Of a DNA stretch of 64,000 nt, positions 30,081 to 54,274 are shown in pieces (position 1 is the first letter of the stretch; the number at the start of each line of letters is the position of its first letter). This DNA is from an uncultured Microbacteriaceae bacterium (GTDB lineage: Bacteria > Actinomycetota > Actinomycetes > Actinomycetales > Microbacteriaceae). The stretch covers positions 496,001 through 560,000 of the forward strand of contig CANKXX010000003.1 of the NCBI GenBank assembly GCA_947487835.1, read 5' to 3'. The notes below the pieces were generated by a model, which was not told where the DNA came from, ran no database searches, and worked only from the letters and a program-made list of their open reading frames with translations. The translations under genes and the position numbers were made by a program.

Positions 30081-30111
30081 ATTATCGCATATAAAATAGG
30101 ATCTACGCCAA
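30081..30111 (-). promoter_or_regulatory. Predicted tctC promoter with operator-like motif
   Basis: On the minus strand TTGGCG (30111-30106), a 19-base spacer and extended -10 TGCGATAAT (GATAAT 30086-30081). The spacer holds GATCCTAT (30103-30096), a motif repeated in the divergent promoter. Confidence 0.5.
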
Positions 30112-30135
30112 CCGGACATTTCTGAGTGCAGAGGA

Positions 30136-30171
30136 TTGACACCGTCCCGCGAATCGTCGATCCTATAGGAC
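30136..30171 (+). promoter_or_regulatory. Predicted MFS promoter with operator-like palindrome
   Basis: A perfect -35 TTGACA (30136-30141) is followed by the near-palindrome ATCCTATAGGAC (30160-30171) covering the -10 region. It contains the same GATCCTAT word (30159-30166) as the tctC promoter, in inverted orientation 63 bp away, so one regulator (probably the GntR protein) may control both. Confidence 0.5.
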
Positions 30172-30238
30172 TATTGCCCGCTTCGGTCGGGTGACGCACG
30201 ACACAAGCAAGACATCGTCAAGACGAAGGAGTCACAGA

Positions 30239-31564: not shown

Positions 31565-31579
31565 GCTGGCTCCCCCACC

Positions 31580-32503
31580 GTGAGCGCCTACACCGGCCCC
31601 ATTGTCGACGCGCACCACCACTTCTGGCAGCCGGAACTGGGCCGCCAGCCGTGGCTGCTGCCGGATGCGCGGATCCCCTTCCGCTACGGCGACTACGAGA
31701 GCATCAAGCGCTCCTACCTGCCCCCCGACCTCCTCCGGGACGCGGCCGGACTCGACATCGTGGGCACGGTCACCATGGAGACCGAGTGGGATCAGGACGA
31801 CCCGGTCGGCGAGATGGACTACACCGAGGCGGTCGCGGCCGAGTACGGCCTACCCAGTGCCGCTGTGGCGCACGCCGTGCTCCGTGATCCGGCCGTCGAG
31901 GGCGTGCTCGAGCAGCTCGCGCAGCGCCCGCTCGTCCGGGCGGTCCGGAACAAGCCGGGCGATGCACCGTCCGCCGCCGCGGCCGCCGACCGGCCGAGCC
32001 TGCTGACCGACGCGCGGTGGCAGGCCGGCTACGCACTCCTGCACCGCTACGGCCTGGACTTCGAGCTCCAGGTGGCGTGGTGGCACTTCGCGGAGGCGGC
32101 GGAGCTGATCGCGCGCCATCCGGAGACCCACGTGACCATCAATCACACCGGGCTGCCGTCCGACCGCTCGCCGGAGGGGATCGCGGGCTGGACGGCGGCG
32201 CTCCGGCTGCTGGCGCGCTTTGACAACGTGGCGATCAAGATCTCCGGCATCGGACTGCGCGGGGTGCCGTGGACGGTGGAGGACAACCGGCCGATCGTCG
32301 AGACCACGGCCGAGATCTTCGGCGCCGACCGCATCATGTTCGCCAGCAACTTCCCCGTCGATGGCCTCACCGGGTCCTACCGGGACATCTACGGCGGCTT
32401 CGTGGAGATCGCGAGCGACTGGTCGCGGGACGAGCAGCGCGCAGCCTTCGCCGGCAATGCCGTGCGGTACTACCGACTCCCCGCGGACCTCCTCAGGGAG
32501 TGA
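31580..32503 (+). CDS. Amidohydrolase-2 family sugar lactonase
   Basis: The 307-residue metal-dependent hydrolase opens IVDAHHHFWQPELGRQPWLL, which is the metal site and start of the COG3618 group. That group contains L-fucono-, L-rhamnono- and galactaro-lactonases. Other landmarks are TVTMETEWD, VTINHTGLPSD and IMFASNFPVDGL with the final metal-binding Asp. It would open a sugar lactone to the aldonic acid. The GTG start lies 15 bases after the MFS gene, so they are cotranscribed. Its position beside a carboxylate transporter operon fits supply of the acid to the same pathway. Confidence 0.88.
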   Translation: MSAYTGPIVDAHHHFWQPELGRQPWLLPDARIPFRYGDYESIKRSYLPPDLLRDAAGLDIVGTVTMETEWDQDDPVGEMDYTEAVAAEYGLPSAAVAHAVLRDPAVEGVLEQLAQRPLVRAVRNKPGDAPSAAAAADRPSLLTDARWQAGYALLHRYGLDFELQVAWWHFAEAAELIARHPETHVTINHTGLPSDRSPEGIAGWTAALRLLARFDNVAIKISGIGLRGVPWTVEDNRPIVETTAEIFGADRIMFASNFPVDGLTGSYRDIYGGFVEIASDWSRDEQRAAFAGNAVRYYRLPADLLRE

Positions 32504-32564
32504 CCGTCCGCGTCAGGACGGTCGGCGCGAGCGAACGAGCACGATTCGCCGGACAAAGAAGGGG

Positions 32565-40889: not shown

Positions 40890-42038
40890 TTACCGGAGCA
40901 GCAGGTTGGGCTGCAGCAGGTACCTGTAGTTGTCCGCCCCGGCCTGATCCTTCGAGGACTGGCTCGTGATCAGCACCGGCCCGGGCTTGTTCGGGTTGTC
41001 CGTCTTCGTGAACGAGAGACGGACGAACTCGCTGTGCACGGCACCGAGGCCGTCCAGCAGGAACTGCGGCTTGAGTGACACGACGGTGTCGCCACCCGTG
41101 AGGAGAGCGTCGATGCTCTCCGATGCCTGGGCCTGTTCTGATCCGATCGCCTCGAGCGTCAGCCCGTCGATCGTGAAGGTGAAACGCAACGCGGCCTCGC
41201 GCTCGAGGACGAGCGCGACGCGTCGTGTCGCCTCGATGAGCTCGGCCGTGTTGATGACCGCGTAGTTCTCGACGGTCTCGGGGAACAGCCGCTTGACGGG
41301 CGGGAAGTTGCCCTTGATGAGGAGCGAGGTCACGGTCTTGCGGTCGGCGCTGAACGCGATGAGCTCACGTTCGTCGGTGTGGGTGATCGCCACGGAGATG
41401 GTGCCGCTGTGGCCGAAGGTCTTGCCGACCTCCTGCAGCGTGCGCGCCGGCACGAGCGCCGAGAGGGTCTCGGACTGCGCGTTGTCGCCGCGATCCCAGT
41501 CGATCTCCCGCACCGCGACGCGGTATCGGTCGGTGGCGATGAGGCCGAGGGTGTTGTCGCCGACCTCGAGCTGCACGCCCGTGATGACGGGGGTGACATC
41601 GTCACGGGAGGCGGCGACGGCCACCTGGGACACCGCGGTGGCGAAGGAGTCGGCGGGAAGGAGCCCGGTCTGCGCCGCGATCTCCGGAAGGCTGGGATAT
41701 TCCTCCACCGGCATGCTCAGCAGGGTGAAGTGCGCGGCGCCGCAGGTGACGCTGATGCGGGACTCGTCGGTCGAGAACTGCACCGGTGCGTTCGGCAGGC
41801 GGTTGGCGATGTCGGCGAGCAGCCGGCCGGACACCAGCACGCGGCCGGTCTCCTCGATCTCCGCGTCGATGCGGGTCCGGGCGGAGACCTCGTAGTCGAA
41901 CGACGAGAGCGTGAGCCCGTCCTCGTCCGCCTCGAGAAGCACACCGCTCAGGATCGGCAGGGTCGTGCGCTGAGGGAGGAGCTTCACGGCAAAGGAGACG
42001 GCCTCGCTGAACACGTCACGGTTCGCCTGAAACCTCAC
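40890..42038 (-). CDS. dnaN: DNA polymerase III sliding clamp (beta subunit)
   Basis: The 382-residue protein begins VRFQANRDVFSEAVSFAVKL and has three clamp domains with LPILSGVLLEADEDGLTL, YPSLPEI and LFPETVENYAVINTAELIEA. It forms the ring that tethers polymerase to DNA. I chose the GTG at 42038 because AGGGGTG lies six bases before it; the frame opens 13 codons earlier without support. It follows the oriC spacer. Confidence 0.95.
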   Translation of the reverse strand: MRFQANRDVFSEAVSFAVKLLPQRTTLPILSGVLLEADEDGLTLSSFDYEVSARTRIDAEIEETGRVLVSGRLLADIANRLPNAPVQFSTDESRISVTCGAAHFTLLSMPVEEYPSLPEIAAQTGLLPADSFATAVSQVAVAASRDDVTPVITGVQLEVGDNTLGLIATDRYRVAVREIDWDRGDNAQSETLSALVPARTLQEVGKTFGHSGTISVAITHTDERELIAFSADRKTVTSLLIKGNFPPVKRLFPETVENYAVINTAELIEATRRVALVLEREAALRFTFTIDGLTLEAIGSEQAQASESIDALLTGGDTVVSLKPQFLLDGLGAVHSEFVRLSFTKTDNPNKPGPVLITSQSSKDQAGADNYRYLLQPNLLLR

Positions 42039-42245
42039 TGCACACCCCTGTCTGGAAATACGAAGACGGTCGATCAACTCTAGCCGCAGGCATTTCGCCA
42101 GCTCCGGAGGACCGCAGACAGCAACGGTACACCCCAGCGGAGAGGCGGCCCGCCGCCCACCGGGCGGACGGAGGCGGAGCCGGAAAAGTTATCGGGCGGA
42201 TGGAAGAAAGGGTTAAAGAACAATTGTGTTAACGGCTGTGGAATC

Positions 42246-42254
42246 TGTGGACAA
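42246..42254 (-). promoter_or_regulatory. DnaA box TTGTCCACA
   Basis: TGTGGACAA on the plus strand, i.e. TTGTCCACA on the minus strand, a form of DnaA box common in high-GC actinobacteria. Confidence 0.8.
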
Positions 42255-42361
42255 CTCCGCGCAGCCCAGTCGGCAGTAGGGAACTACACGGGTGGAAGTT
42301 GTGAGCAGCCTGTTGGCGGAGCGGGGAGGACGGTCCCACGGAGGCATGACAAGAATTCTTG

Positions 42362-42434
42362 TTGTTCACATCCTGGCCACCGAAGTGAACAGCGCTCTCG
42401 GCGGTTCTCCACAGTTATCCACAGGTTCTGCACA
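42362..42434 (+). promoter_or_regulatory. DnaA box cluster
   Basis: TTGTTCACA (42362-42370), TTCTCCACA (42405-42413), the consensus TTATCCACA (42415-42423) and TTCTGCACA (42426-42434) lie on the same strand. The middle pair is spaced by one base, which suggests cooperative DnaA binding. Confidence 0.75.
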
Positions 42435-42604
42435 ATGTGTGAAAACCCCCGAATCCGATCCGCACAGGGCCGCTGACGGCCGCTGAGGCCCTGTCCCGAG
42501 CCGGCATCGACCCTCTGAAACGGGTGTGCGAACGTGCGCTGGACCCTGCTTCGGCCGGCTGGACCGGCGTGCAAGAGGGGGCGGAAACGGAGGCACGTCC
42601 CGTA

Positions 42605-42773
42605 GCTTCGACAGGCTCAGCGACCGTGCAACCGGCCCCGCGAGGCGCCTCGCGACCTGCGACCGACGTCGTGCGAGGGGCGGCGGCAAAGACGGTCCCT
42701 GAGCCTGTCGAAGGCGCCCGTCGCCCCGAGTCCGCGGGTTCCTTACTACGGTCCCTGAGCCTGTCGAAGGGAC
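42605..42773. repeat. Three dispersed-repeat copies in oriC spacer
   Basis: One inverted copy (TTCGACAGGCTCAGCGACC, about 42606-42626) and two direct copies (GGTCCCTGAGCCTGTCGAAG, about 42693-42714 and 42749-42773). Confidence 0.8.
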
Positions 42774-42801
42774 GCATGTCGCCCTCTCCCCGGCTGCACG
42801 C

Positions 42802-42876
42802 CGCGCCCCTGCCCAGGCACGAGGATCCTCCCCAGCTTTTACCTGCGCAGAAACCTCCTGCCTGGGCAGGGGCGCG
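42802..42876. repeat. 18-bp perfect inverted repeat with 39-bp loop
   Basis: CGCGCCCCTGCCCAGGCA (42802-42819) is exactly complementary to TGCCTGGGCAGGGGCGCG (42859-42876). The loop contains two small palindromes, GAGGATCCTC (42821-42830) and CTGCGCAG (42843-42850). It lies 100 bases downstream of the dnaA stop and could terminate dnaA transcription or be a mobile palindromic unit. Confidence 0.85.
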
Positions 42877-42976
42877 AGAGGTCGCGGGGACGAGCGGACG
42901 CAGCGCCTGCGGGCACGCAGGAGAACGGAACGCGGACCACTCCCCCGCGCACGAAGCACCCGCCGAACGGAGCGGG

Positions 42977-44395
42977 TCAGATCTTGTAGCGGTGGTCCTG
43001 CTTGATGCGGCTCGTGAGCTCGGTCACCTGGTTGTAGATGGACCGGCGCTCCTTCATGAGCTCCGTGATCTTCTTGTTCGCGTACATGACCGTGGTGTGG
43101 TCGCGGTTGCCGAACAGCTGACCGATCTTCGGCAGCGACAGGTTCGTCAGCTCCCGGCACAGATACATGGCGATCTGCCGCGCGGTGGCGATCGCCTGGG
43201 AGCGCGAGGTGCCGTACAGGTCGTCCACCGTGAGCTTGAAGTAGCTGGCGGTGTGGTTGATGATGTCGACCGGCGCGATCACGTTGTCGTCGTCGAGCGT
43301 GATCAGGTCCTTGAGCACGGTCTGCACGAGCGCGAGGTCGACGGCCGTGCGGTTGAGGCTCGCGAACGCGGTCACCCGGATGAGCGTGCCCTCGAGCTCG
43401 CGCACGTTCGAGGTGACCTTCGTGGCCATGAACTCGAGGATGTCGTCGGGCACCTGCAGCTTCTCGCTCTGCGCCTTCTTCCGGAGGATCGCGATGCGCG
43501 TCTCCAGGTCCGGCGCCTGCACATCGGTGATGAGGCCCCACTCGAAGCGCGACCGCATGCGGTCCTCGAACCCGGTGAGGTGCTTCGGCGGCAGGTCGCT
43601 GGTGATCACGACCTGCTTGTTGTGGTCGTGCAGCGTGTTGAAGGTGTGGAAGAAGGCCTCCTGGGTGGAGTCCTTCCCCTGCAGGAACTGGATGTCGTCG
43701 ATCAGCAGGATGTCGATGTCGCGGTACCGGGACTGGAACAGCGACGACCGGTTGTTCGCGATCGAGTTGATGAAGTCGTTGGTGAACTCCTCGGAGCTCA
43801 CGTAGCGCACCCGGATGCCCGGGTACAGGCTCATCGCGTAGTGCCCGATAGCGTGCAGGAGGTGGGTCTTGCCCAGCCCGGACTCGCCGTAGACGAACAG
43901 CGGGTTGTACGCCTTCGCCGGCGCCTCGGCCACGGCCACCGCGGCGGCGTGCGCGAAGCGGTTGGAGCCGCCGATGACGAAGTTGTCGAAGCTGTACTTG
44001 GGGTTGAGCCGCGAGTCGGACCGGCTGTGCGCCGGCGGCATCGCCGTGACGGTCGGCACCTTGGGCGTCTCGATGTACGGCTGATCCACCTGCTCGGTGC
44101 GGCGCTCGTAGGAGTCCTGCCCGATCTCCGGATTGACGACGATGGCGAAGTTCGTGACGCCGAAGCTGTCGTCGACGGAGCCGATGGCGTTGAGCAGGGG
44201 CACGCGCACGCGCTGCTCGAGCATCCCTCGGGTCAGTTCGTTGGGCACCTCGAGGTAGATGGTGCCGGTCATGACGCCCTTGGGCTCGACAAGGCTGATG
44301 AAGCCGTGCAGCTGAGGGGTGATGCGGTCGTCTGCGGTGAGCGACCCCATGATCGAGTCCCAGATCTCACGAGTCGGGTCGGGGCTCTGCTGCAT
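42977..44395 (-). CDS. dnaA: Chromosomal replication initiator protein DnaA
   Basis: The 472-residue protein has domain I opening DPTREIWDSIMGSL, a short linker domain II, the AAA+ domain III with Walker A VYGESGLGKTHLLHAIGH and Walker B DILLIDDIQFLQGK, and the helix-turn-helix domain IV with the signature LPKIGQLFGNRDHTTVMYA. It binds the DnaA boxes in oriC and opens the origin. The ATG at 44395 has GAGGGG six bases upstream; an ATG eight codons earlier (44419) is a possible alternative. DnaA boxes in the upstream spacer suggest autoregulation. Confidence 0.96.
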   Translation of the reverse strand: MQQSPDPTREIWDSIMGSLTADDRITPQLHGFISLVEPKGVMTGTIYLEVPNELTRGMLEQRVRVPLLNAIGSVDDSFGVTNFAIVVNPEIGQDSYERRTEQVDQPYIETPKVPTVTAMPPAHSRSDSRLNPKYSFDNFVIGGSNRFAHAAAVAVAEAPAKAYNPLFVYGESGLGKTHLLHAIGHYAMSLYPGIRVRYVSSEEFTNDFINSIANNRSSLFQSRYRDIDILLIDDIQFLQGKDSTQEAFFHTFNTLHDHNKQVVITSDLPPKHLTGFEDRMRSRFEWGLITDVQAPDLETRIAILRKKAQSEKLQVPDDILEFMATKVTSNVRELEGTLIRVTAFASLNRTAVDLALVQTVLKDLITLDDDNVIAPVDIINHTASYFKLTVDDLYGTSRSQAIATARQIAMYLCRELTNLSLPKIGQLFGNRDHTTVMYANKKITELMKERRSIYNQVTELTSRIKQDHRYKI

Positions 44396-44502
44396 CGTTC
44401 CCCTCGTCGTACTCGTCATGATCTGTGTGCCCTCGTGTCCTCGACTGCAGGGCTTGCGGCCCGGTCGGTTGCGTCGCGCTGGTGTGGACGTGGGGAGTTA
44501 CT

Positions 44503-44525
44503 CACATACTTATCCACCGTATGTG
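44503..44525 (+). promoter_or_regulatory. DnaA box inside a 7-bp inverted repeat
   Basis: TTATCCACC (44510-44518), a one-mismatch DnaA box, is bracketed exactly by CACATAC (44503-44509) and GTATGTG (44519-44525). It lies about 110 bases upstream of the dnaA start. Confidence 0.6.
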
Positions 44526-44661
44526 GGAAACCGGCACAGCAGTCTCCTCGCACGAGCGACGCCGTTCGGGTGTGCAGCCCCTCACGCTAGATGAGGCCGC
44601 GGGCGAGAACAAATTCACCCTAAGTCCACCGGCATGTCAATACCGCGTTGGGGGGAGGCGG

Positions 44662-44670
44662 TGTGGATAA
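44662..44670 (-). promoter_or_regulatory. DnaA box TTATCCACA
   Basis: TGTGGATAA on the plus strand is a perfect consensus DnaA box on the minus strand, 24 bases before the predicted rpmH -35 box. Confidence 0.75.
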
Positions 44671-44811
44671 TCGGAGGTTGCGCAGCCGTTGGTTTGACCG
44701 GACGGGTCGAAGGCCGTAGTTTTAATCAGTTGACCCCGCAGCCATACCGGGCTGCCCCATTCTTCCCGGCCGACCTTTCGGTTCGTGGATGACACCTGTG
44801 GAGATCACCTC

Positions 44812-44949
44812 ATGAGCAAGAGAACGTTCCAGCCGAACAACCGCCGCCGCGCCAAGGTGCACGGCTTCCGCCTCCGTATGCGCACGCGCGCCGGCCGCGC
44901 CATCCTCGGCGCTCGTCGCCGCAAGGGGCGCACCGAGCTCTCCGCGTAA
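44812..44949 (+). CDS. rpmH: 50S ribosomal protein L34
   Basis: The 45-residue very basic protein [20 protein letters not shown] continues [20 protein letters not shown] and ends TELSA, full-length L34. It is a component of the large ribosomal subunit. It heads the plus-strand rpmH-rnpA-yidD-yidC-jag-rsmG block that leads away from oriC. GGAGA precedes the ATG. Confidence 0.97.
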
Positions 44950-44957
44950 CACCACCC

Positions 44958-45299
44958 GTGTTGGCCAAGGCCAATCGCGTGACGTCCGGCGCCGACTATC
45001 GAGCAATCGTGCGGCGCGGACGTCGCGCAGGTGGCGCCAACACGGTGTGCTACATCCGCAGGTCGCCTGCCGAGACGCCGGCCCGGTTCGGGTTCATCGT
45101 GTCGAAGAAGGTGGGCACCGCCGTGCGCCGCAACCTGGTGCGGCGCCGGATGAAGGCTGTCGCCTACGAGTACGTCGACCGGCTCCCCGCTGGATCGGAC
45201 ATCGTCGTCAGGGCGCTTCCAGGTGCCGATCAAGCGTCGTGGGATACCCTGCACGCAGAGATTTCGGCTGCACTCGACAGAAACTTCGGAACAGTATGA
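44958..45299 (+). CDS. rnpA: Ribonuclease P protein component
   Basis: The 113-residue basic protein has the RnpA signature FGFIVSKKVGTAVRRNLVRRRM, which contacts the catalytic RNA in tRNA 5' maturation. The GTG start lies 8 bases after rpmH; a TTG follows as the second codon. Its stop overlaps the yidD start. Confidence 0.95.
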   Translation: MLAKANRVTSGADYRAIVRRGRRAGGANTVCYIRRSPAETPARFGFIVSKKVGTAVRRNLVRRRMKAVAYEYVDRLPAGSDIVVRALPGADQASWDTLHAEISAALDRNFGTV

Positions 45300-45604
45300 G
45301 CAGGGTCATCACCTTCCTCCTGCTGCTCCCCCGGAACCTGGTCGTTCTGCTGCTTCGGGCTTACCGCGCGGTGATCTCGCCTCTGTACGGCGACGTGTGT
45401 CGTTACTACCCCTCCTGTTCGGCCTACGGGCTGCAGGCGGTGCAGGAACACGGCGTCGTCGTGGGCGGGTTCCTCACGGTCCGCCGCATCCTGCGTTGTC
45501 ACCCGTGGGCGGCAGGCGGCATCGATGACGTGCCGAGACGCAAGACCCGCCGATACGCACTGACTCGCTTCGGATTCGTTGTAGCCGGCCACGGAAAGGG
45601 CTAA
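45296..45604 (+). CDS. yidD: Membrane protein insertion efficiency factor YidD
   Basis: The 102-residue protein has an N-terminal amphipathic/hydrophobic helix (FLLLLPRNLVVLLLRAYRAV) and the YidD core YPSCSAYGLQAVQEHG with RRILRCHPWAAGGIDDVP. It assists membrane protein insertion with YidC, encoded next. The ATG overlaps the rnpA TGA. Confidence 0.95.
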   Translation: MSRVITFLLLLPRNLVVLLLRAYRAVISPLYGDVCRYYPSCSAYGLQAVQEHGVVVGGFLTVRRILRCHPWAAGGIDDVPRRKTRRYALTRFGFVVAGHGKG

Positions 45605-45614
45605 CCAACCACAC

Positions 45615-46574
45615 ATGGACATCATCGGCACGATCCTCTGGCCCATCAAATGGGTCATCGAGCTGATCCTCGTCGGCTTCCACACCCTCTGGTCGTCCAT
45701 CGGCATGGACCCGGACGCCGGCATCACCTGGATCCTGTCCATCGTCGGCCTGGTGCTCATCGTCCGCGCGGCCCTGATCCCGGTGTTCGTCAAGCAGATC
45801 AAGAGCCAGCGCAAGACCCTCGAGATCGCGCCGCAGCTCAAGAAGATCCAGGACAAGTACCGCGGCAAGCGCGACCAGTTCTCCCGTGAGGCCATGTCCC
45901 GCGAGACCATGGAGTTGTACAAGCGCACGGGGACGAACCCGCTGAGCTCCTGCCTCCCGCTGCTCCTGCAGATGCCGATCTTCTTCGGCCTGTTCTCGGT
46001 GCTCAACGACGCGCAGCACGACAAGGCCGGGGTCGGCCTCCTGAGCCGCCAGCTCGCGGACTCCTTCGCCAACTCGGAGCTCTTCGGTGCGCCGCTGCGC
46101 GCCACGTTCATCGACAACGGCGGCAACGCCCTGGTGATGGTGATCGCCGCGGTCATGGTCGTACTCATGACGGTGTCGCAGTTCATCACGCAGCTGCAGA
46201 TCATGGCGAAGAACATGTCGCCCGAGGCGAAGAACAGCCCGATGTTCCGCCAGCAGAAGATCCTGCTCTACATCCTTCCCCTCGTCTTCGCCGTCTCCGG
46301 CGTGGCCTTCCCGCTCGGCGTGATGTTCTACTGGCTCACCTCGAACTTCTGGACCATGGGTCAGCAGTTCCTCGTGATCCGCAACATGCCGACGCCCGGC
46401 AGCGAGGCCGCCGCGGCCCGCGAGGCACGTCTCGCCCGCCGAGGCAAGCTGCCCGAGGTGGAGTCCGCCGGGGCCGGCGGCAACACCGTCGTCATCGAGG
46501 AGAAGCGCCCCACCCAGCGCGCACAGCCGGTCGGAAAGGCCCGTGCGAAGAAGACCGGAGGAAAGAAGAGATGA
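45615..46574 (+). CDS. yidC: Membrane protein insertase YidC
   Basis: The 319-residue Oxa1/YidC family protein has five membrane segments, including GITWILSIVGLVLIVRAALI, and the conserved region TGTNPLSSCLPLLLQMPIFFG, with the hydrophilic-groove Arg in the first core segment. The C-terminal 60 residues are basic (AREARLARRGK... to KTGGKKR), as in Gram-positive YidC proteins that bind ribosomes. It inserts proteins into the membrane alone or with Sec. The stop overlaps the jag start. Confidence 0.96.
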   Translation: MDIIGTILWPIKWVIELILVGFHTLWSSIGMDPDAGITWILSIVGLVLIVRAALIPVFVKQIKSQRKTLEIAPQLKKIQDKYRGKRDQFSREAMSRETMELYKRTGTNPLSSCLPLLLQMPIFFGLFSVLNDAQHDKAGVGLLSRQLADSFANSELFGAPLRATFIDNGGNALVMVIAAVMVVLMTVSQFITQLQIMAKNMSPEAKNSPMFRQQKILLYILPLVFAVSGVAFPLGVMFYWLTSNFWTMGQQFLVIRNMPTPGSEAAAAREARLARRGKLPEVESAGAGGNTVVIEEKRPTQRAQPVGKARAKKTGGKKR

Positions 46575-47104
46575 GCGACGTGACGGACGACATCCAGACG
46601 GTCGACCAGCCGGACGTGCTCGTCGACAGCCGCGACGAGGCACCGATCTCGCAGCTCGAGGAGGAGGGCGACGTCGCCGCCGACTACATCGAGGAGCTGC
46701 TCGACATCTGCGACCTCGACGGTGACATCGACATCGAGGTGCGTGCCGGACGCGCATACGTGTCGGTGACCGCGGGCGCCGACAGCAACATCAGCGTCCT
46801 CTCCCAGCCCGACACGGTCAGCGCTCTCCAGGAGCTCACCCGCCTCGCGGTGCAGAGCAAGACCGGTGCGTTCTCCCGCCTCATCCTCGACGTCGGCGGG
46901 TCGCGCGACGCTCGGCAGGCCGAGCTGTCCCAGCTCGTCGACCGTGCCATCGGCCGCATCGAGGCAGGCTCGTCCTCCGCCGCCCTTCCGCCCATGTCGT
47001 CGTACGAGCGCAAGCTCGTGCACGACCTGGTGTCGTCGCGCGGCTACACCTCGGAGTCCGAGGGCGAGGGCCGCGACCGCCACACGGTCATCTCGCCGGC
47101 GTAG
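46571..47104 (+). CDS. jag: RNA-binding protein Jag/KhpB-like (KH and R3H domains)
   Basis: The 177-residue protein has a KH-like domain (about 45-115) and a C-terminal R3H domain with MSSYERKLVHDLVSSRGYTS. The N-terminal Jag_N domain found in Firmicutes is missing and replaced by a short acidic segment, as is usual in actinobacteria. It binds RNA; its targets are unknown. The ATG overlaps the yidC stop by four bases. Confidence 0.93.
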   Translation: MSDVTDDIQTVDQPDVLVDSRDEAPISQLEEEGDVAADYIEELLDICDLDGDIDIEVRAGRAYVSVTAGADSNISVLSQPDTVSALQELTRLAVQSKTGAFSRLILDVGGSRDARQAELSQLVDRAIGRIEAGSSSAALPPMSSYERKLVHDLVSSRGYTSESEGEGRDRHTVISPA

Positions 47105-47118
47105 GCGCAGCGGAACCC

Positions 47119-47781
47119 GTGACGGATCAGATCGACTCCTCCGCCCCGCTCCCGATCGCCTCCCTCGAGGCCGAGCCGGGTGCGGCTGCGGAGTTGTTCG
47201 GTGACCGCATCGAACTCGCCCGCGCCTTCACGGCGAACCTCGCGAAGCACGGCGAGGAGTTCGGCCTCATCGGGCCGCTCGAGCTCCCCCGGCTGTGGAC
47301 GCGGCACATCCTGAACAGCGTGCTCGTCGCACCTCTGCTGCGGCCGGGCATCGTCGGTGACGTCGGCAGTGGCGCCGGCCTTCCGGGCCTGGTGCTCGCG
47401 ATCGCGCGGCCGGACGTGTCCTTCGTGCTCATCGAGCCGATGGAGCGCCGGGTGAAGTGGCTGCAGGACCAGGCAGCCGAGCTGGCGCTCGACAACGTCA
47501 CCGTGCTCCGGGCGCGCGCCGAGGAGGCGGTGGACCAGGTGTCGCTCGACCAGGTCACCGCGCGGGCCGTCAGCGCCCTGTCGAAGCTCGTGCCGATCAC
47601 GGTTCCGCTCGTGCGGGACGGCGGGGAACTCGTGTTCCTCAAGGGTGCGAACGCCCAGAAGGAGATCGACGCGGCGGCCAAGGTCATCCGCAAGTACCAC
47701 CTCACGGATGTCGAGGTGCTCGTGCTCGGCGAGGGTGTGGTTCCGGAGGTCACCCGGGTCATCCGGGCTACAGTGGACTGA
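47119..47781 (+). CDS. rsmG: 16S rRNA (guanine-N7) methyltransferase RsmG
   Basis: The 220-residue protein is a Rossmann-type methyltransferase with the SAM motif VGDVGSGAGLPGLVLAIARP, the conserved FVLIEPMERRVKWL and the RAVSALSKLVPI motif of RsmG (GidB). It methylates G527 of 16S rRNA; loss of the family causes low-level streptomycin resistance. The GTG start is 14 bases after jag. Confidence 0.95.
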   Translation: MTDQIDSSAPLPIASLEAEPGAAAELFGDRIELARAFTANLAKHGEEFGLIGPLELPRLWTRHILNSVLVAPLLRPGIVGDVGSGAGLPGLVLAIARPDVSFVLIEPMERRVKWLQDQAAELALDNVTVLRARAEEAVDQVSLDQVTARAVSALSKLVPITVPLVRDGGELVFLKGANAQKEIDAAAKVIRKYHLTDVEVLVLGEGVVPEVTRVIRATVD

Positions 47782-47871
47782 CCCGCTCCACCACCACTCC
47801 TCCACATCCCCGATCTCCCGGGAGTGAGCAGCTCCCCCGATGCCGCGCCGCGCGGTCCAGACGCCGGTCGC

Positions 47872-47877
47872 TACACT
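47872..47877 (+). promoter_or_regulatory. Possible parA -10 element
   Basis: TACACT fits TAnnnT and lies 30 bases before the chosen parA GTG. It supports that start, because the earlier GTG at 47824 would lie upstream of this promoter. Confidence 0.4.
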
Positions 47878-47907
47878 CAGCGCGACCAGAACGAGAAGGT
47901 TTTCGAC

Positions 47908-48834
47908 GTGACACAGCCCGACGAGAAGACGGTGAACACCGGATCCGCGGGCGGCTTCGACGATTCCACTCCCCTGGCTCGGGAGATCTCCGAGATCACG
48001 CGCCGTCGCAACGCCCTCGCGACCCAGGTGTTGCCGCTCCCCGACGCGACGCGCGTGTTCACCGTCGCGAACCAGAAGGGCGGGGTGGGTAAGACCACCA
48101 CGACCGTGAACCTGGCGGCCGCGCTGGCCAAGTCGGGTGCGCGCGTCCTGGTCATCGACCTCGACCCGCAGGGCAATGCGTCGACAGCCCTCGGTGTGGA
48201 GCATCGGGCGGACACGATCAGCGTCTACGACGTGATCATCGACGATGCTCCCATCGAGGACGTCATCCAGAAGAGCCCTGAGTTCGACACGCTGTTCTGC
48301 GTGCCGGCGACAATCCACCTCGCCGGTGCCGAGATCGAGCTCGTCTCTCTCGTCGCCCGGGAGCAGCGGCTGCGCACCGCACTCGAGCGCTTCGCCACCG
48401 AGAGTGGCGAGGAGCCGTTCCACTACATCTTCATCGACTGCCCGCCGTCGCTCGGGCTCCTCACCATCAACGCGTTCGTCGCCGCGCGCGAGGTGCTCAT
48501 CCCCATCCAGTGCGAGTACTACGCGCTCGAGGGGCTGAGCCAGCTGCTCAAGAACATTCAGTTGATCGAGAAGCACCTCAATCCGCAGCTCGTGATGTCG
48601 ACGATCCTTCTCACCATGTACGACGCGCGCACGAACCTCGCCCAGCAGGTCGCGCAGGATGTGCGTTCGCACTTCCCCAACGAGGTGCTCTCGACGATCA
48701 TCCCCCGCTCGGTCCGCATCTCGGAGGCTCCGAGCTACGGGCAGAGCGTCATCAGCTACGACAAGAACTCCCCCGGCTCGCTCTCGTACCTCGAGGCGGC
48801 GGCGGAGTTGGCACGACGAGGAGCACCTGAGTAA
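47908..48834 (+). CDS. parA: Chromosome partitioning ATPase ParA
   Basis: The 308-residue protein has the deviant Walker A VANQKGGVGKTTTTVNLAAA, DLDPQGNASTALG, FIDCPPSLGLLT and Walker B region typical of ParA/Soj. It forms dynamic complexes on DNA that move ParB-parS complexes. I chose the GTG at 47908 because AGAAGG lies eight bases upstream; the frame also opens with GTG at 47824, where no spaced ribosome-binding site exists. parB follows with a one-base overlap. Confidence 0.93.
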   Translation: MTQPDEKTVNTGSAGGFDDSTPLAREISEITRRRNALATQVLPLPDATRVFTVANQKGGVGKTTTTVNLAAALAKSGARVLVIDLDPQGNASTALGVEHRADTISVYDVIIDDAPIEDVIQKSPEFDTLFCVPATIHLAGAEIELVSLVAREQRLRTALERFATESGEEPFHYIFIDCPPSLGLLTINAFVAAREVLIPIQCEYYALEGLSQLLKNIQLIEKHLNPQLVMSTILLTMYDARTNLAQQVAQDVRSHFPNEVLSTIIPRSVRISEAPSYGQSVISYDKNSPGSLSYLEAAAELARRGAPE

Positions 48835-49865
48835 TGGCGACCAAGCGAACCGGACTGGGCAGAGGCATCGGCGCCCTCATCCCCTCCATGGACGAGACCC
48901 GTGAGCGCCCCGTCGACGTGTTCTTTCCGACCACGGCACGGGACGCCGCGAATGGGACGTCGCCGGTGGTGCGGGACGCCGGCAGAATGGCTCCTGTAGC
49001 ACGCGACTCGAACGCCAGTACTACTAATGATGATGAGCCACAGCTTGTGGCGGTACCTGGCGCCCGTCTCGCGCAGCTGAACCCGGCCGACATCGTGCCG
49101 AACGCTCAGCAGCCGCGGTCCGACTTCCGGGAGGACGACCTCCAGGAGCTCGTCGTGTCCATCCGAGAGTTCGGTGTCCTGCAGCCGATCGTGGTTCGGC
49201 CGGCCACCGGCCTCCCCGGTGGTGCTCACTACGAGCTCGTCATGGGTGAGCGCCGTCTCCGCGCGACGAAGCTCGCGGGGCTCGACAGCATTCCCGCGGT
49301 GGTCAAGGAGACTGCCGATGACGCGATGCTTCGCGACGCCCTGCTCGAGAACCTGCACCGGTCGCAGCTGAATCCTCTCGAGGAGGCGAGCGCGTATCAG
49401 CAGCTCCTCGCCGACTTCGACATCACCCAGGAGCAGCTCGCCAACCGCATCGGCCGGTCACGCCCCCAGATCTCCAACACGCTCCGTCTGCTGCGCCTGC
49501 CTGCTCAGTTGCAGCAGCGTGTTGCTGCCGGTGTATTGAGCGCCGGCCACGCCCGTGCGATCCTCTCGGTCGGCGACCACGACGGCATGCTGCGCCTCGC
49601 CGACAAGATCGTGAACGAGGACCTCTCTGTTCGTGCCGCCGAGGCCGCCGCGGCGAACATGTCGCGTCTCCCCCGCGCTCGCCTCGCGCCCGGCCCGAAG
49701 CAGGTGCACCTGAGCGAGGTCGCGGAACGCCTCGGCGACCGCTTCGACACCAGGGTCAAGGTGAACCTGGGCGCGAAGCGCGGCCAGATCGTCATCGAGT
49801 TCGCTACGGTGGGCGACCTCAACCGCATCGCTGCGGAGATGGGCGTCGACGGCTTCACGCGCTGA
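48834..49865 (+). CDS. parB: Chromosome partitioning protein ParB
   Basis: The 343-residue protein has the N-terminal CTPase/sulfiredoxin-like fold (QQPRSDFREDDLQELVVSIR, MGERRLRATKLAGL, DALLENLHRSQLNPLEEA), a helix-turn-helix (ITQEQLANRIGRSRPQISNT) and a C-terminal dimerisation domain. It binds parS and spreads as a clamp; five candidate parS sites lie within 2 kb downstream. The N-terminal 80 residues, including the ParA-interacting start GRGIGALIP, form a long linker. Confidence 0.96.
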   Translation: MATKRTGLGRGIGALIPSMDETRERPVDVFFPTTARDAANGTSPVVRDAGRMAPVARDSNASTTNDDEPQLVAVPGARLAQLNPADIVPNAQQPRSDFREDDLQELVVSIREFGVLQPIVVRPATGLPGGAHYELVMGERRLRATKLAGLDSIPAVVKETADDAMLRDALLENLHRSQLNPLEEASAYQQLLADFDITQEQLANRIGRSRPQISNTLRLLRLPAQLQQRVAAGVLSAGHARAILSVGDHDGMLRLADKIVNEDLSVRAAEAAAANMSRLPRARLAPGPKQVHLSEVAERLGDRFDTRVKVNLGAKRGQIVIEFATVGDLNRIAAEMGVDGFTR

Positions 49866-49937
49866 CGGCAGCTGTTCGTGACGCGCTGTGGCTGCGGGGC
49901 TCGTTAGCGTCGAGGCTTTGATCGCGAGATGCGGCAT

Positions 49938-49951
49938 GTTTCACGTGAAAC
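49938..49951. promoter_or_regulatory. parS site 1 (perfect)
   Basis: GTTTCACGTGAAAC, the exact 14-bp ParB-binding palindrome, 73 bases after parB. Confidence 0.95.
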
Positions 49952-50430
49952 GGTCGACACAGGCCGTCTCCAGCACAAGGCCCCGGTCAGGCCCATATTT
50001 GCATCAGGGATAGGGACAGCGCGGGTTGGACGTCTGTCGCTCCGCTGGCCATCATCGGCCAGGTCGGACGATTGAACCCTGAACTGCGCTGCACGGAAAT
50101 GGGTTGAGCTGAGTTCGCTGGCGAGTGCTAGTCCATGAGTTGCTCTTGGCTGGTGGCATATGTACGTAGCGCGTTGCCACTGCGGATGTCCTGCGGGTGC
50201 CGATGATGCTGATTCGAGTCCGTAGACGGTACCCATATGTAGGCGCGCCTCGATTAGGAGGGTCGGCCGGGCCTCCCGAATTGTGGCCCAAGTGGCGGTT
50301 ACCCCGTCCTTGGAGTCCCGCGGTCGGGGTGAGCTTGGTGTGCCCGACACGTACCGAGTGTGATTCCGCCCAGCGAAGCAGGGAAATGCAGCGCATCGGC
50401 TGAAATTTCTAGATATGAGCGCCCTAGTTG

Positions 50431-50458
50431 CCTAGGTACCTAGGTACCTAGGTACCTA
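50431..50458. repeat. Tandem 8-bp repeat CCTAGGTA
   Basis: Three and a half units of CCTAGGTA. Each unit contains CTAG, a rare tetramer in bacterial DNA, and the array alternates the palindromes CCTAGG and GGTACC. Confidence 0.9.
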
Positions 50459-50494
50459 AGGGGTCAATGATTCGTGCGCCGATGCAGTGTGTCT

Positions 50495-50508
50495 GTTTCA
50501 CGTGAAAC
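50495..50508. promoter_or_regulatory. parS site 2 (perfect)
   Basis: GTTTCACGTGAAAC, flanked by T and A so that the full 16-bp consensus is matched. Confidence 0.95.
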
Positions 50509-50604
50509 ATCTGCACCGTCTCGGATCGCTAGCTGGATAGAGGTACGGCGAGAGAGCGGTGCGGTGCCGCGCTGCGCTGCGGTGAATGCGGCGTACAAAG
50601 TCGC

Positions 50605-50670
50605 GTGCCGGTGCCGGTGCCGGTGCCGGTGCTGGTGCTGGTGCTGGTGCCCGTCCTGGTGCTGGTGCTG
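50605..50670. repeat. Tandem 6-bp repeat GTGCCG/GTGCTG
   Basis: Eleven hexamer units: four GTGCCG, three GTGCTG, one GTGCCC, one GTCCTG and two GTGCTG. No supported gene reads through it. Confidence 0.9.
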
Positions 50671-50958
50671 GTCGCCGTTGGCCTCTTCACCGTGTGAAGG
50701 CAGTTCGACGGGCACACGTCGCCAGGTAGGGCAATCTCTCGATCCTGATGCAGGCTATCCCACGGCTTCCGGCACCAGTTCGAGCGAACCGCGTTGCGTG
50801 GACCACCGGTTCACGCGGAACGTGTACCCGGTCTCAGTGATTCTTCGTGGCGGACGGCGAGCAGGGTGTTGTCTCAGGGTGAGCCACCGGCGGTGTAGAG
50901 CCGCAAGGGCACGGCGGCGTGACCGCGACCGACACCCAAAGTCACATCCACGTCAGCC

Positions 50959-50972
50959 GTTTCACGTGAAAC
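50959..50972. promoter_or_regulatory. parS site 3 (perfect)
   Basis: GTTTCACGTGAAAC. Confidence 0.95.
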
Positions 50973-51275
50973 GGCGCCAAGAATTCGCGATCAACGTGTG
51001 GTTGGCTCTGTCGATGGCTGAGCAGTGCGGAATCATCTCGCTACTGTTGCTCGATCGATTCGTCGGCACGGTAGCGGTAGAAAAGTCGTCATATTTGCAA
51101 CGCAAGGCCTACAGCGCCTTCTGGAGCGGGACGGCAGCTCGGAGTAGTGAACATCCCGAGGCGGCACCGCCACGCAGGAGACTTCTCCTTGTAGCCACGG
51201 GTGCATCGCAGCTCGCTGTCGCGTGGCCAGGCTGTGTCGGGACGCCAGTACCAGTGGCAACACATATCGGGGGGC

Positions 51276-51289
51276 GTTTCACGTGAAAC
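51276..51289. promoter_or_regulatory. parS site 4 (perfect)
   Basis: GTTTCACGTGAAAC. Confidence 0.95.
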
Positions 51290-51801
51290 GCGTCCTCCAC
51301 GGGGCCGAAGCCGTAACGATGCGCTACACGCAAGGTGGCGCACATGGAGGTGAGTGTCGGTCGCGCTTCCCATTTCCGACGGTTGCCGACGTCCTAGTCG
51401 GGTTCTTGCGCCGCCTGGCCGGCGGGGGCATATGCGCATGCCCATAGTGCTGCTTTGTCGAGTGGCCCTACGAGCACGGGTGGGGGGCAGGTGGGCCACC
51501 AGGTCGCGGTAGTCAGAGTGTCTACCGTTGGTTGCGGCCCTCGCATTGCTGTGTGACCGGAAGAGGGTCCGTGTCGCGGGGCTCATTTCGCGTCGTTGTC
51601 TCCTGTACGCCCATACCGCCGCCCCTTACATACCCCGGCTGTTTGAATCGATTCAGGCACTGATAACGGCCGACCGTGTCGATTACACTCGAAGACCAGT
51701 GACGGCAGACTACCTCGGTGCCCGCATACCCCGAGCGTTCACAGGGGCAGGCGGGCTAGAACGTGCCTGTTCTCAGCGGGATCTCGACCCGGAGCCCGAC
51801 T

Positions 51802-51815
51802 GTTTCACGTGGAAC
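51802..51815. promoter_or_regulatory. parS site 5 (one mismatch)
   Basis: GTTTCACGTGGAAC, one base off the consensus in the right half-site. Confidence 0.75.
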
Positions 51816-51972
51816 ATTACCCGTAGACGGTAATAGGGCGAGAGCGGGCTCCGCGGCCTCTGCCCGACGGGGGGCTAGGGCGACCCGAGGTTGCTATCCG
51901 CGGGCAGCGGGCGACGTGAGCGGCGATTCAGGATCCCGCCCGAGTGGGCAAAGCGAGCAAGCGGCCCGGTTA

Positions 51973-52941
51973 CTACTCCGCCGAGGCGGCGAGGATGGCA
52001 AGCTCCGCGAGGGCGCGGTAGATCTCGCCGAGGTCGTGTTCGGACGCCTCGATGCCCTGCGGCACGAGGGAGGTCTCCGTCAGGCCGGGGAGGACGTTGA
52101 CCTCGAGGAACCAGGGGGTGCCCTGATCGTCGACGATGAAGTCGACGCGCGAAATATGACGGAGTCCCAGGGCCTGGTGAGCGGCGATGGCAGCGGCCGC
52201 GGCGGCCGCAGCTACGTCGGTATCGAGGCGCGCAGGAGTGAAGAAGCGAGTCTCACCGGCGTTGTAGCGCGAAGCGAAATCATAAACCCCTGATCGCGGG
52301 ACGATTTCGGTGGCCGGTAATGCGGTCGGGCCGTCGGTGGTCTCGATGACCCCGATCGAGATCTCGCGTCCGGTAATGCGGCGCTCGATGAGCGCGACGT
52401 CGCCGTAGGTGTACGCGTCGACCATGGCGGAGGGCAGGTCGGCGGAATCGTCGACGAACGACACGCCTTGCGCGGAACCGCCCTGGGCGGGCTTGACGAC
52501 GAGCGGCAGGTCGAGGGATCGCAGCACGCTGGAGAGGACGCTGCTGGCGCCGAGCTCTCGGAAGGTGTCCTTCGGCAGGGTGATCGACTCCGGCGTCTGC
52601 ACGCCCACACGCCCGACGAGCGTCTTCGCCGTCGGCTTGTGCCAGGCGAGCCGTGCTGCATCGCTGGGGGAACCGACGTAGGGGATGCCGGCGTGCTCGA
52701 GAAGGGCGAACAGCGCGCCGTCCTCGCCGCTCGCGCCGTGCAGGGCGGGCCAGACGACGTCGGGGCGCACCTCGTCGAGGTAGGGGAGCAGCGTGGCGTC
52801 AGGATCGCGCAGGACGACGGTGGCACCGCGGTGACGGAGTCCGTCGGCCACGCGCCTTCCACTGCGCAGCGACACGTCACGCTCGTGAGAGATGCCGCCC
52901 GCGAGGACGACGACGGAGAGGGGAGCCTGGGTGGGTGTCAT
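51973..52941 (-). CDS. D-alanine-D-alanine ligase-like ATP-grasp protein
   Basis: The 322-residue protein opens SVVVLAGGISHERDVSLRSG, the Ddl N-terminal motif, and has PLVVKPAQGGSAQGVSFV and the C-terminal metal-binding FLEVNVLPGLTETSLVPQ. ATP-grasp ligases of this type join D-alanine residues for peptidoglycan precursors. It is about 30 residues shorter than typical Ddl and may be a second, divergent ligase, so I do not assign the symbol. It starts 7 bases after the aminotransferase stop, which suggests an amino-acid-linked operon. Confidence 0.85.
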   Translation of the reverse strand: MTPTQAPLSVVVLAGGISHERDVSLRSGRRVADGLRHRGATVVLRDPDATLLPYLDEVRPDVVWPALHGASGEDGALFALLEHAGIPYVGSPSDAARLAWHKPTAKTLVGRVGVQTPESITLPKDTFRELGASSVLSSVLRSLDLPLVVKPAQGGSAQGVSFVDDSADLPSAMVDAYTYGDVALIERRITGREISIGVIETTDGPTALPATEIVPRSGVYDFASRYNAGETRFFTPARLDTDVAAAAAAAAIAAHQALGLRHISRVDFIVDDQGTPWFLEVNVLPGLTETSLVPQGIEASEHDLGEIYRALAELAILAASAE

Positions 52942-52948
52942 GGCGGGC

Positions 52949-54274
52949 CTAATCGAGGTCGGGCGGCGGGCTGGCGTAGTGGGGGTCGATCCGTGCGCTC
53001 TCGAGCAGTCCTGTGCCGGCGAAGGTCTGCAGCAGGTCGAGCTCGCCGTTGATCACCGTGGCGAGCCGGCGAATACCCTCGCGGATGCGCTCCGGCGTCG
53101 GGTAGCAGAACGACAACCGCATCGCGTGCCGACCCCGCCCGTCGGCGAAGAAGGCGGTGCCCGGCGTGTACGCGACGAGCTCCTTCACGGCACGCGGCAG
53201 CATCTGCTTCGAGTCGAGGGTGTTCGGCAGGGTCAGCCACACGTAGAAGCCGCCATTGGGCACGGTCCACTGCAGCTGCGGGAGGTACTCGCTGAGCGCG
53301 CGCACCATCGCGTCACGCCGCTCCCGGTAGACCCCACGGAACGTGTCGATCTGCCCCTGCCAGTCCGCCGTCGCGAGGTACTCCGACACGACCAGCTGGT
53401 TGAACGAGCTGGGGGAGAGGATGGCGGACTCCGCGGCGAGGATCAGCTTCTCGCGGATGGCGTGCGGGGCGAGGGCCCAGCCCACCCGGAAGCCGGGCGC
53501 CAGCGTCTTGGAGAATGAGCCGAGGTAGATGACCCCCTCCTCGTCCACCGCCCTTAGCGCCTCTGGCGGCTTCTCGTCGAAGTACAGGAGGCCGTAGGGG
53601 TTGTCCTCGAGCACGAGGATCTCGTTGCTGCGCGCGATGTCGAGGATCTCGGCTCGGCGCGACGCGCTGAGCGTCACCCCGGCAGGGTTGTGGAAGTTCG
53701 GGATCGTGTACAGGAACTTGATGGTGCGCCCCTCGGCTCGGAGGCGGGCGATCGTCTCGCGCAAGGCCTCCGGGATGAGCCCGTGCTCGTCGATGGCGAC
53801 GTGCGAGACGTGCGCCTGGTACGAGCGGAACACCCCGATGGCTCCGACGTAGCTGGGCGCCTCGGCGAGGATGACGTCGCCGGGATCGATGAACAGCTTC
53901 GTCACGAGGTCCAGGGCCTGCTGCGAGCCGGTCGTCGTCACGATGTCATCGACGCTGCCGGAAACGCCCTCGAGCGCCATCACGTCGAGGATCTGCTCGC
54001 GCAGCGCGGGGATGCCCTGGCCGGATCCGTACTGCAGGGCAACAGGACCCTTGTCGCGCATCACGCGCTCCATGGCCGTGGTGATGAGGTGCGACGGAAG
54101 TGCTGATACGACAGGCATTCCGCCGGCGAGGGAGACGACCTCGGGCCGGGAGGCGACGGCGAAGAGGGCGCGTACCTCCGAGGCGCTGAGGCCTGCCGTG
54201 CGCTGCGCATACTGGGAGTACCACGGGTCGAGGTTCGTGCCCGGCAACCCGCGTCCGTCAGCCGGTGTGTTCAC
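52949..54274 (-). CDS. PLP-dependent aminotransferase (MocR/LysN-like class I)
   Basis: The 441-residue fold type I aminotransferase has the PLP-binding Lys in GSFSKTLAPGFRVGWALAPH, YTIPNFHNPAGVTLS with the conserved Asn, and LEDNPYGLLYF. It resembles alpha-aminoadipate/multi-substrate aminotransferases of the Aro8/LysN group, without the DNA-binding domain of MocR. The substrate is not defined; linkage to a D-Ala ligase-like gene hints at amino-acid metabolism. The GTG start is six bases after TAGGCT (54286-54281), so the mRNA is probably leaderless. Confidence 0.9.
   Translation of the reverse strand: MNTPADGRGLPGTNLDPWYSQYAQRTAGLSASEVRALFAVASRPEVVSLAGGMPVVSALPSHLITTAMERVMRDKGPVALQYGSGQGIPALREQILDVMALEGVSGSVDDIVTTTGSQQALDLVTKLFIDPGDVILAEAPSYVGAIGVFRSYQAHVSHVAIDEHGLIPEALRETIARLRAEGRTIKFLYTIPNFHNPAGVTLSASRRAEILDIARSNEILVLEDNPYGLLYFDEKPPEALRAVDEEGVIYLGSFSKTLAPGFRVGWALAPHAIREKLILAAESAILSPSSFNQLVVSEYLATADWQGQIDTFRGVYRERRDAMVRALSEYLPQLQWTVPNGGFYVWLTLPNTLDSKQMLPRAVKELVAYTPGTAFFADGRGRHAMRLSFCYPTPERIREGIRRLATVINGELDLLQTFAGTGLLESARIDPHYASPPPDLD

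Follow-up and report, generated by a model that had tools for sequence, protein, structure and literature searches.

A gene-free parS array between parB and ddl as the probable centromere of a Microbacteriaceae chromosome

Why does a chromosome of the Microbacteriaceae carry more than 2 kb of DNA without a recognisable gene between parB and ddl, and what are several parS sites doing there? The DNA analysed here (the window) is a 64-kb stretch from an uncultured member of the family. Its parB-ddl gap spans positions 49866-51972 (2107 bp) and is bounded exactly by the stop of parB and the stop of ddl. The original prediction placed four perfect and one single-mismatch parS sites in this 2.1-kb gene desert, and all five were found, at consecutive spacings of 557, 464, 317 and 526 bp. 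The features of the locus are as follows.

47824-48834, forward strand: parA (Pfam AAA_31, 1.5e-59)
48834-49865, forward strand: parB (Pfam HTH_ParB, 4.4e-34; ParB_N, 8e-32)
49866-51972, no strand: gene-free parS array, the parB-ddl convergent gap; longest non-coding stretch of the 64-kb window
49938-49951, no strand: parS 1, perfect match
50423-50458, no strand: CCTAGGTA tandem repeat, 4.5 copies, self-palindromic, inside the gap
50495-50508, no strand: parS 2, perfect match
50605-50677, no strand: GTGCCG/GTGCTG simple repeat, 12 copies, inside the gap
50808-50821, no strand: possible decayed parS, perhaps chance, 3 mismatches, inside the array
50959-50972, no strand: parS 3, perfect match
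51276-51289, no strand: parS 4, perfect match
51802-51815, no strand: parS 5, one mismatch
51973-52941, reverse strand: ddl, D-Ala-D-Ala ligase, convergent with parB (Pfam Dala_Dala_lig_C, 5.6e-41)

The sites themselves are canonical and of an already known kind. The parS palindrome GTTTCACGTGAAAC is commoner than chance in the window, where seven matches with up to three mismatches were counted against 0.86 expected and none of 100 shuffles reached seven. Across the whole assembly (3,901,513 bases in 32 contigs), a scan allowing two mismatches returned five places, all of them inside the parB-ddl gap; a backwards control pattern gave two matches in the same genome-wide scan. The neighbourhood is that of a chromosomal ParABS centromere, with parA and parB encoded near oriC genes and the sites concentrated at the origin region: dnaN, dnaA, rnpA, yidC, jag and rsmG (identified by visual inspection of the translations) adjoin parAB, and this oriC-type gene order is kept in relatives. 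The ParB translation contains a GERRLR stretch, which we take to be the CTP-binding motif, and the genome has an SMC-like gene (PF02463 above cut-off, 1557-codon frame). The reading that we prefer, with a probability of about 0.78, is that the gap is the entire centromere of this chromosome, a gene-free parS array between two convergent genes.

The absence of any believable gene from the desert, also part of the original prediction, was borne out. In a codon-usage scan of the whole window, positions 49860-51975 (2116 bp) formed the longest stretch without a coding-like segment, and none of seven gap ORFs, including all five of more than 100 aa that lie wholly inside the gap, matched a Pfam family. 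The best coding score in the gap, 16.1 (shuffles 7.6), comes from an ORF spanning a simple repeat. Within the genome, gap DNA recurs only as the GTGCCG-type simple repeat and the local self-palindrome, with 40 of 86 first-look candidates scored; on the same scoring, similar short copies of the GTGCCG/GTGCTG repeat lie at ten other places in the genome.

These results bear on two alternatives. The gap could be a decayed gene or mobile element that chanced to carry parS, as the original prediction had allowed with its mention of a decayed locus; the G+C content (62.7%, five points under the 67.8% of parB), several chance ORFs and the simple repeats are what such a remnant might leave. We consider this very improbable, since residual coding or homology to known genes or elements is what would mark such a locus, and the gap shows neither: there is no coding-like segment, no Pfam match in the seven ORFs, no match in a comparison with phage and plasmid DNA, and nothing homologous in the corresponding gap of either of two congeners, whose own gaps have coding scores near those of shuffles (10.3 vs 6.2; 5.2 vs 6.1). 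Long non-coding DNA adjoining essential genes might equally make the parB-ddl gap a regulatory or non-coding RNA locus, a reading that we find scarcely credible. Neither a known RNA family nor conservation in congeners was found: Rfam gave no match in the gap (two weak matches of 42000-53000 fall outside it), the gap shows no homology to that of P. deserti or P. psychrotolerans, and scans for sigma-70-type promoter-like or terminator-like patterns, which are weak in GC-rich actinobacteria, gave none at the gap. As no terminator-like site was seen, read-through from parB or ddl is possible.

The two congeners are Planctomonas deserti and P. psychrotolerans, which belong to the same genus as our genome. 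Overall, 91% of the window aligns to the matching P. deserti contig at 90% identity, and the interior stretches of at least 150 bp that remain unaligned measure 186 bp, 2449 bp and, at the parS gap, 2131 bp; no alignment covers the opening 1040 bases of the window either. The flanking genes align at 83-98%, with the alignment reaching the parB stop and restarting 22 bases inside ddl, and inside the 2107-bp gap nothing matches P. deserti except 38 bp that surround a parS. Elsewhere in the locus, intergenic DNA retains 74-95% identity, the lowest values being those of trxB-murJ (74%) and dnaN-dnaA (76% over 463 of 576 bp). With parS masked, the gap gave a local score of 29 against its P. deserti counterpart (2544 bp long), for which 40 shuffles averaged 28 and reached 33 at most, and a score of 26 against that of P. 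psychrotolerans (25.8 for shuffles). The sites were found in all three species: the gaps of the window, P. deserti and P. psychrotolerans contain 5, 6 and 5 parS, respectively (4, 4 and 3 of them perfect; the other two in P. deserti have one mismatch each), and in both congeners every exact parS of the genome sits in this same parB-ddl gap. Because only 67.8% of 4-fold sites are identical between the window and P. deserti, survival of the 14-bp parS by chance is very unlikely.

How the loss of similarity between the sites is to be read depends on what neutral change can do. In our simulation, substitutions with moderate small indels nearly abolished blastn coverage at such a distance, so that the lost alignability can be explained neutrally and our claim is one of no sequence constraint outside parS, not of a rate above neutral. 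A faster-than-neutral turnover of the gap was accordingly dropped after this simulation of neutral substitution and indels. In one Leifsonia pair whose 4-fold identity is comparable (71%), however, 97% of the gap can still be aligned. An inversion of the gap in P. deserti was also considered and not accepted, the reverse-strand score of 36 lying below the highest of 40 shuffles (37).

Two further differences from P. deserti lie elsewhere in the window. Positions 30108-32556, the 2449-bp stretch, are missing from the matching contig, a difference in gene content; by eye, the ORFs 30191-31564 and 31580-32503 are transporter-like and amidohydrolase-like, respectively. The dnaN-dnaA region holds the runner-up non-coding stretch of the window (42030-42979, 950 bp), of which 42488-42600 is unaligned to P. 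deserti, and SLSKG and PVEG-like frame stretches there suggest palindromic repeats.

Gap turnover was also followed in 42 locus pairs with a parAB nucleotide identity of at least 80% and gaps of at least 300 bp. At most 10% of the shorter gap aligned in 35 of these pairs, and intergenic controls of the 42 aligned over 20-100%; the pairs are mostly Cryobacterium and non-independent, and the controls, being short and containing promoters, provide no neutral standard. The seven exceptions comprise few-parS Leifsonia pairs (up to 97%), Cryobacterium L039/L043 (31%), L039/L042 (17%) and L085/L091 (11%). Selection keeps the parS sites and not the surrounding sequence, and probably keeps the open space too. 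The last point is where a neutral explanation departs from ours: parS could have settled in a tolerant gap in which functionless DNA then accumulated, so that only the sites are selected and neither length nor the absence of genes means anything. The lack of detectable conservation outside parS, the simple repeats and the sufficiency of neutral divergence with indels to explain the lost homology are all as this explanation would have it, and so is the variation of gap length from 0 to 2.5 kb among relatives.

The distribution of parS across the family speaks to the same question. Among 77 loci with ddl (76 of 80 named relatives plus the window; the 4 of 81 without a ddl match were left out), gap length scales with parS number (Spearman 0.83), and the number of parS upstream of the parB stop trades off against the number in the gap (-0.63). 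A genus-balanced set of 67 genomes plus the window covers 68 of 85 genera of the family; the 17 genera left out have the ParB proteins of lowest similarity, and among them g85 shows 4-10 exact parS in every one of five genomes. At least three parS occupy a parB-side gap of at least 300 bp (hereafter "down") in 10 of the 68 genera and the rsmG-parA gap ("up") in 15, whereas no genus has such arrays in both gaps and 43 have them in neither. Median numbers of parS per locus stretch are 5 (down), 5 (up) and 2 (neither), where upstream counts can be low because contig ends truncate the loci of some relatives. Exactly two parS are present in 23 of the 43 "neither" genera, both of them upstream in 22 of the 23, and the members of this pair sit near the starts of rsmG and parA, upstream of the parB stop by roughly 2.5-3.4 kb and 1.9-2.4 kb; both sites are missing from the window and from P. 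deserti.

A tree was built by a quick method from six concatenated proteins (2088 columns), with weak support for 25 of its 65 inner branches. It requires at least 15 changes among the three states, with 7 for down and 9 for up, and the starred branches alone force 5 (down) and 9 (up); such counts do not tell gain from loss. The distribution of parS in relatives is not random, and the family has repeatedly built gene-free parS arrays on either side of parAB. The original proposal that the desert is retained as a centromere is upheld here, in that it holds the only recognisable parS of the genome, encodes no known protein family and has non-randomly placed counterparts in relatives. Neither a conserved protein family in the gap nor a random scatter of parS across relatives, the two results that would speak against that proposal, was found. 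Microbacterium mangrovi (L067:466-7039) has 18 parS (at most one mismatch) in 6.6 kb, upstream of and at the parA start.

Gene freedom and parS go together in these two slots. No coding score above 20.2 occurs in any of 25 genus-level arrays, and left-out scores of real genes (rnpA, trxA, rsmG and parB; n = 570) have a median of 48.7 with a 10th percentile of 12.7, so that short genes could escape the scan. With a score of 20 as our own choice of gene-free cut-off (array L178, at 20.2, is just above it), 26 gene-free gaps of at least 600 bp carry parS and one does not, compared with six and six for coding-like gaps (Fisher P 0.0017, genus-balanced); coding-like stretches occur in 6 of the 32 parS-bearing gaps of this comparison. 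In Agromyces (L064 and L088) a coding-like stretch lies behind rsmG, and in Humibacter (L063 and L162) a score of 33-34 was obtained between two edge parS sites. The 1.2-kb parB-ddl gap of one of the latter (L063:9015-10095), with its edge pair of parS, has a coding-like interior that is partly conserved in L073 (72% over 196 bp). Other gaps near the origin are different: parS is found in none of 50 dnaN-dnaA gaps (median 396 bp) and none of 62 dnaA-rnpA gaps (median 470 bp; presumably including rpmH), and a single parS is found in 7 of 61 AAT-trxA gaps, so that parS does not simply drop into any gap near oriC.

Set against these results, the purely neutral explanation appears rather unlikely to us. 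It does not lead one to expect that 26 of 27 gene-free gaps of at least 600 bp carry parS, that the number of sites scales with gap length, that arrays arise repeatedly, or that the window and P. deserti both keep more than 2 kb despite having no sequence in common. Moreover, deletion bias tends to remove useless DNA from bacterial genomes, which should have purged such a gap.

The co-occurrence of arrays and gene-free gaps could also have the reverse cause, namely that the desert arose through ParB silencing: genes close to numerous loading sites would have been repressed and then lost, and the absence of genes would be a consequence. Plasmid ParB does silence genes several kb from parS, but B. 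subtilis ParB at its native level leaves neighbours unsilenced, both according to one source (PMC7333895). In addition, parA, parB and ddl, whose expression is required, sit right beside the array, and gap growth seems a better description than gene loss, ddl being the next recognised gene after parB in most of the 68 genera whether the gap is short or long. We therefore regard silencing as an improbable origin of the desert.

How, then, might a gene-free parS array grow? Among 51 arrays (gaps of at least 300 bp, at least three parS, coding score of at most 25), internal repeats of at least 40 nt, with parS masked, were present in 12 and absent in 39. None of 102 shuffles and none of 51 coding stretches had such repeats, and among 79 other intergenic stretches just one did; counted in 500-bp windows, the figures were 14 of 141 versus 0 of 46. 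The repeat period falls within 3 bp of a parS-parS distance in three of the 12: Leifsonia virtsii (L089) has repeat units in which four parS, one with a mismatch, follow one another at exactly 106 bp, the parS-bearing units of Cryobacterium sp. N22 (L039) measure 442-532 bp, and a 394-bp period fits the parS spacing in L176. The period fits no parS distance in the other nine, thus spacer DNA duplicates without parS too. Head-to-tail units carrying the binding site, the hallmark of a satellite, are present in these three relatives; the window array shows no internal repeat of at least 40 nt (parS masked, low complexity filtered). Sites also accumulate at gap edges. Where a parB-side gap of at least 600 bp has parS, a site lies within 100 bp of the parB stop in 23 of 33 cases and of the other edge in 21 of 33 (8.7 expected), and the two edges of rsmG-parA gaps have such sites in 8 and 15 of 29 (5.6 expected). 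This pile-up would fit growth of DNA between the sites of an originally short gap.

The suggestion that the array is spaced for ParB spreading fared less well. In the window, parS spacing is indeed more even than random placement (CV 0.20, P about 0.013), but neither P. deserti (P 0.09) nor P. psychrotolerans (P 0.23) is significant alone, and the pile-up at gap edges runs against it. Among 38 arrays with at least four sites, the mean P was 0.34 for the 21 down and 0.29 for the 17 up; the P values are non-uniform (KS 6e-6), with just 4 of 38 below 0.05 and same-genus arrays not independent. Even spacing as a general rule was given up, and a mild tendency is retained. Over 185 intervals in the 51 arrays, the median spacing is 263 bp and the smallest 25 bp.

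ParB is known to load at parS, to spread to neighbouring DNA and to recruit SMC (PMC7333895, PMC7083940, PMC7022226 and PMC8357415). By analogy with such ParABS systems, ParB dimers would load with CTP at each parS of the gap, form closed clamps and slide onto adjacent DNA, and the five loading sites within 1.9 kb would form a single zone that ParA moves and at which SMC is loaded, the gene-free DNA giving room for clamps with little transcription. Our inference is that the array serves as a single, compact loading zone within gene-free DNA. According to two sources (PMC7333895, PMC7083940), a single parS is often enough in the bacteria studied, so five sites and 2 kb are perhaps unneeded. An array would start as a small parS-bearing intergenic gap and grow locally, with parS and its flanking DNA duplicated in tandem in some lineages, and the copies would drift until parS alone is recognisable; the window would be past that stage, if it occurred.

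Taken further, these arrays might be satellite-like centromeres: they would grow by repeated tandem duplication of parS with its spacer, form a gene-free tract selected for length but not for sequence, be replaced in their entire sequence from one sister species to the next and move from one side of parAB to the other, as eukaryotic neocentromeres shift. The window would then be a switched, fully drifted end state in which the sites that many relatives have before rsmG and parA are gone. We hold this view tentatively, with the odds somewhat against it. As an analogy only, eukaryotic satellite centromeres share the conservation of position and function while the DNA between sites differs between sister species, the growth by tandem duplication (here in some lineages) and the shifts of position over time; unlike them, parS is sequence-specific and conserved, the arrays measure kilobases and not megabases, and there is no histone-like mark. 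Plasmid centromeres built of tandem repeats also exist, such as sopC of the F plasmid. sopC likewise has ParB-type sites side by side in non-coding DNA beside the par operon, and some relatives of the window have true tandem units of this sort (106 bp in L089). In contrast to sopC, the arrays described here are chromosomal, use canonical parS at 0.03-1.6 kb spacing and have diverged units, and the window has no visible repeat unit.

The closest chromosomal comparison is with Corynebacterium glutamicum, which has the canonical palindrome at several mostly intergenic sites of the origin region and encodes ParA, ParB and SMC; whereas its ten parS extend over 35 kb (PMC7083940), the window has five in one 2.1-kb gene-free stretch and the genome has no other parS with up to two mismatches. 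The array is thus an unusual form of the canonical parS cluster, being gene-free, expanding and side-switching. What appears to be new is a gene-free tract holding all parS of a genome, the repeated origin of such arrays in either of two slots across a family, the unalikeness of sister arrays and the tandem growth in some relatives; among the matches listed in the open-licence literature, no title or opening of an abstract describes such arrays. The family provides a natural series in the same two slots, from two-site loci through small parS pairs and tandem arrays to drifted arrays, and the origin of multi-parS centromeres is therefore directly testable. The series suggests that length and gene freedom around parS may themselves be selected. 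In B. subtilis, clustering of strong parS has been linked to the avoidance of SMC collisions (PMC8357415), which is a possible advantage of clustered sites.

Beyond the family, exact parS were found in 90 of 119 genomes in a sample of the order. Eight clusters were picked among the matches listed for their dense look: L189, L190, L192 and L193 have 6-10 parS (at most one mismatch) between rsmG and parA, L191 and L195 have four between parB and ddl, the parS of L196 are scattered, and the position of L194 could not be placed. With clusters in both gaps outside the family, the two-slot habit may be older than the Microbacteriaceae. Two of these loci, each from another family of the order, are worth recording: L193:4146-6305 has ten parS (at most one mismatch) in 2.2 kb of rsmG-parA DNA, and L195:5847-11314 has parS clusters just upstream of the matched part of parB, between parB and ddl, and between an aminotransferase gene and trxA.
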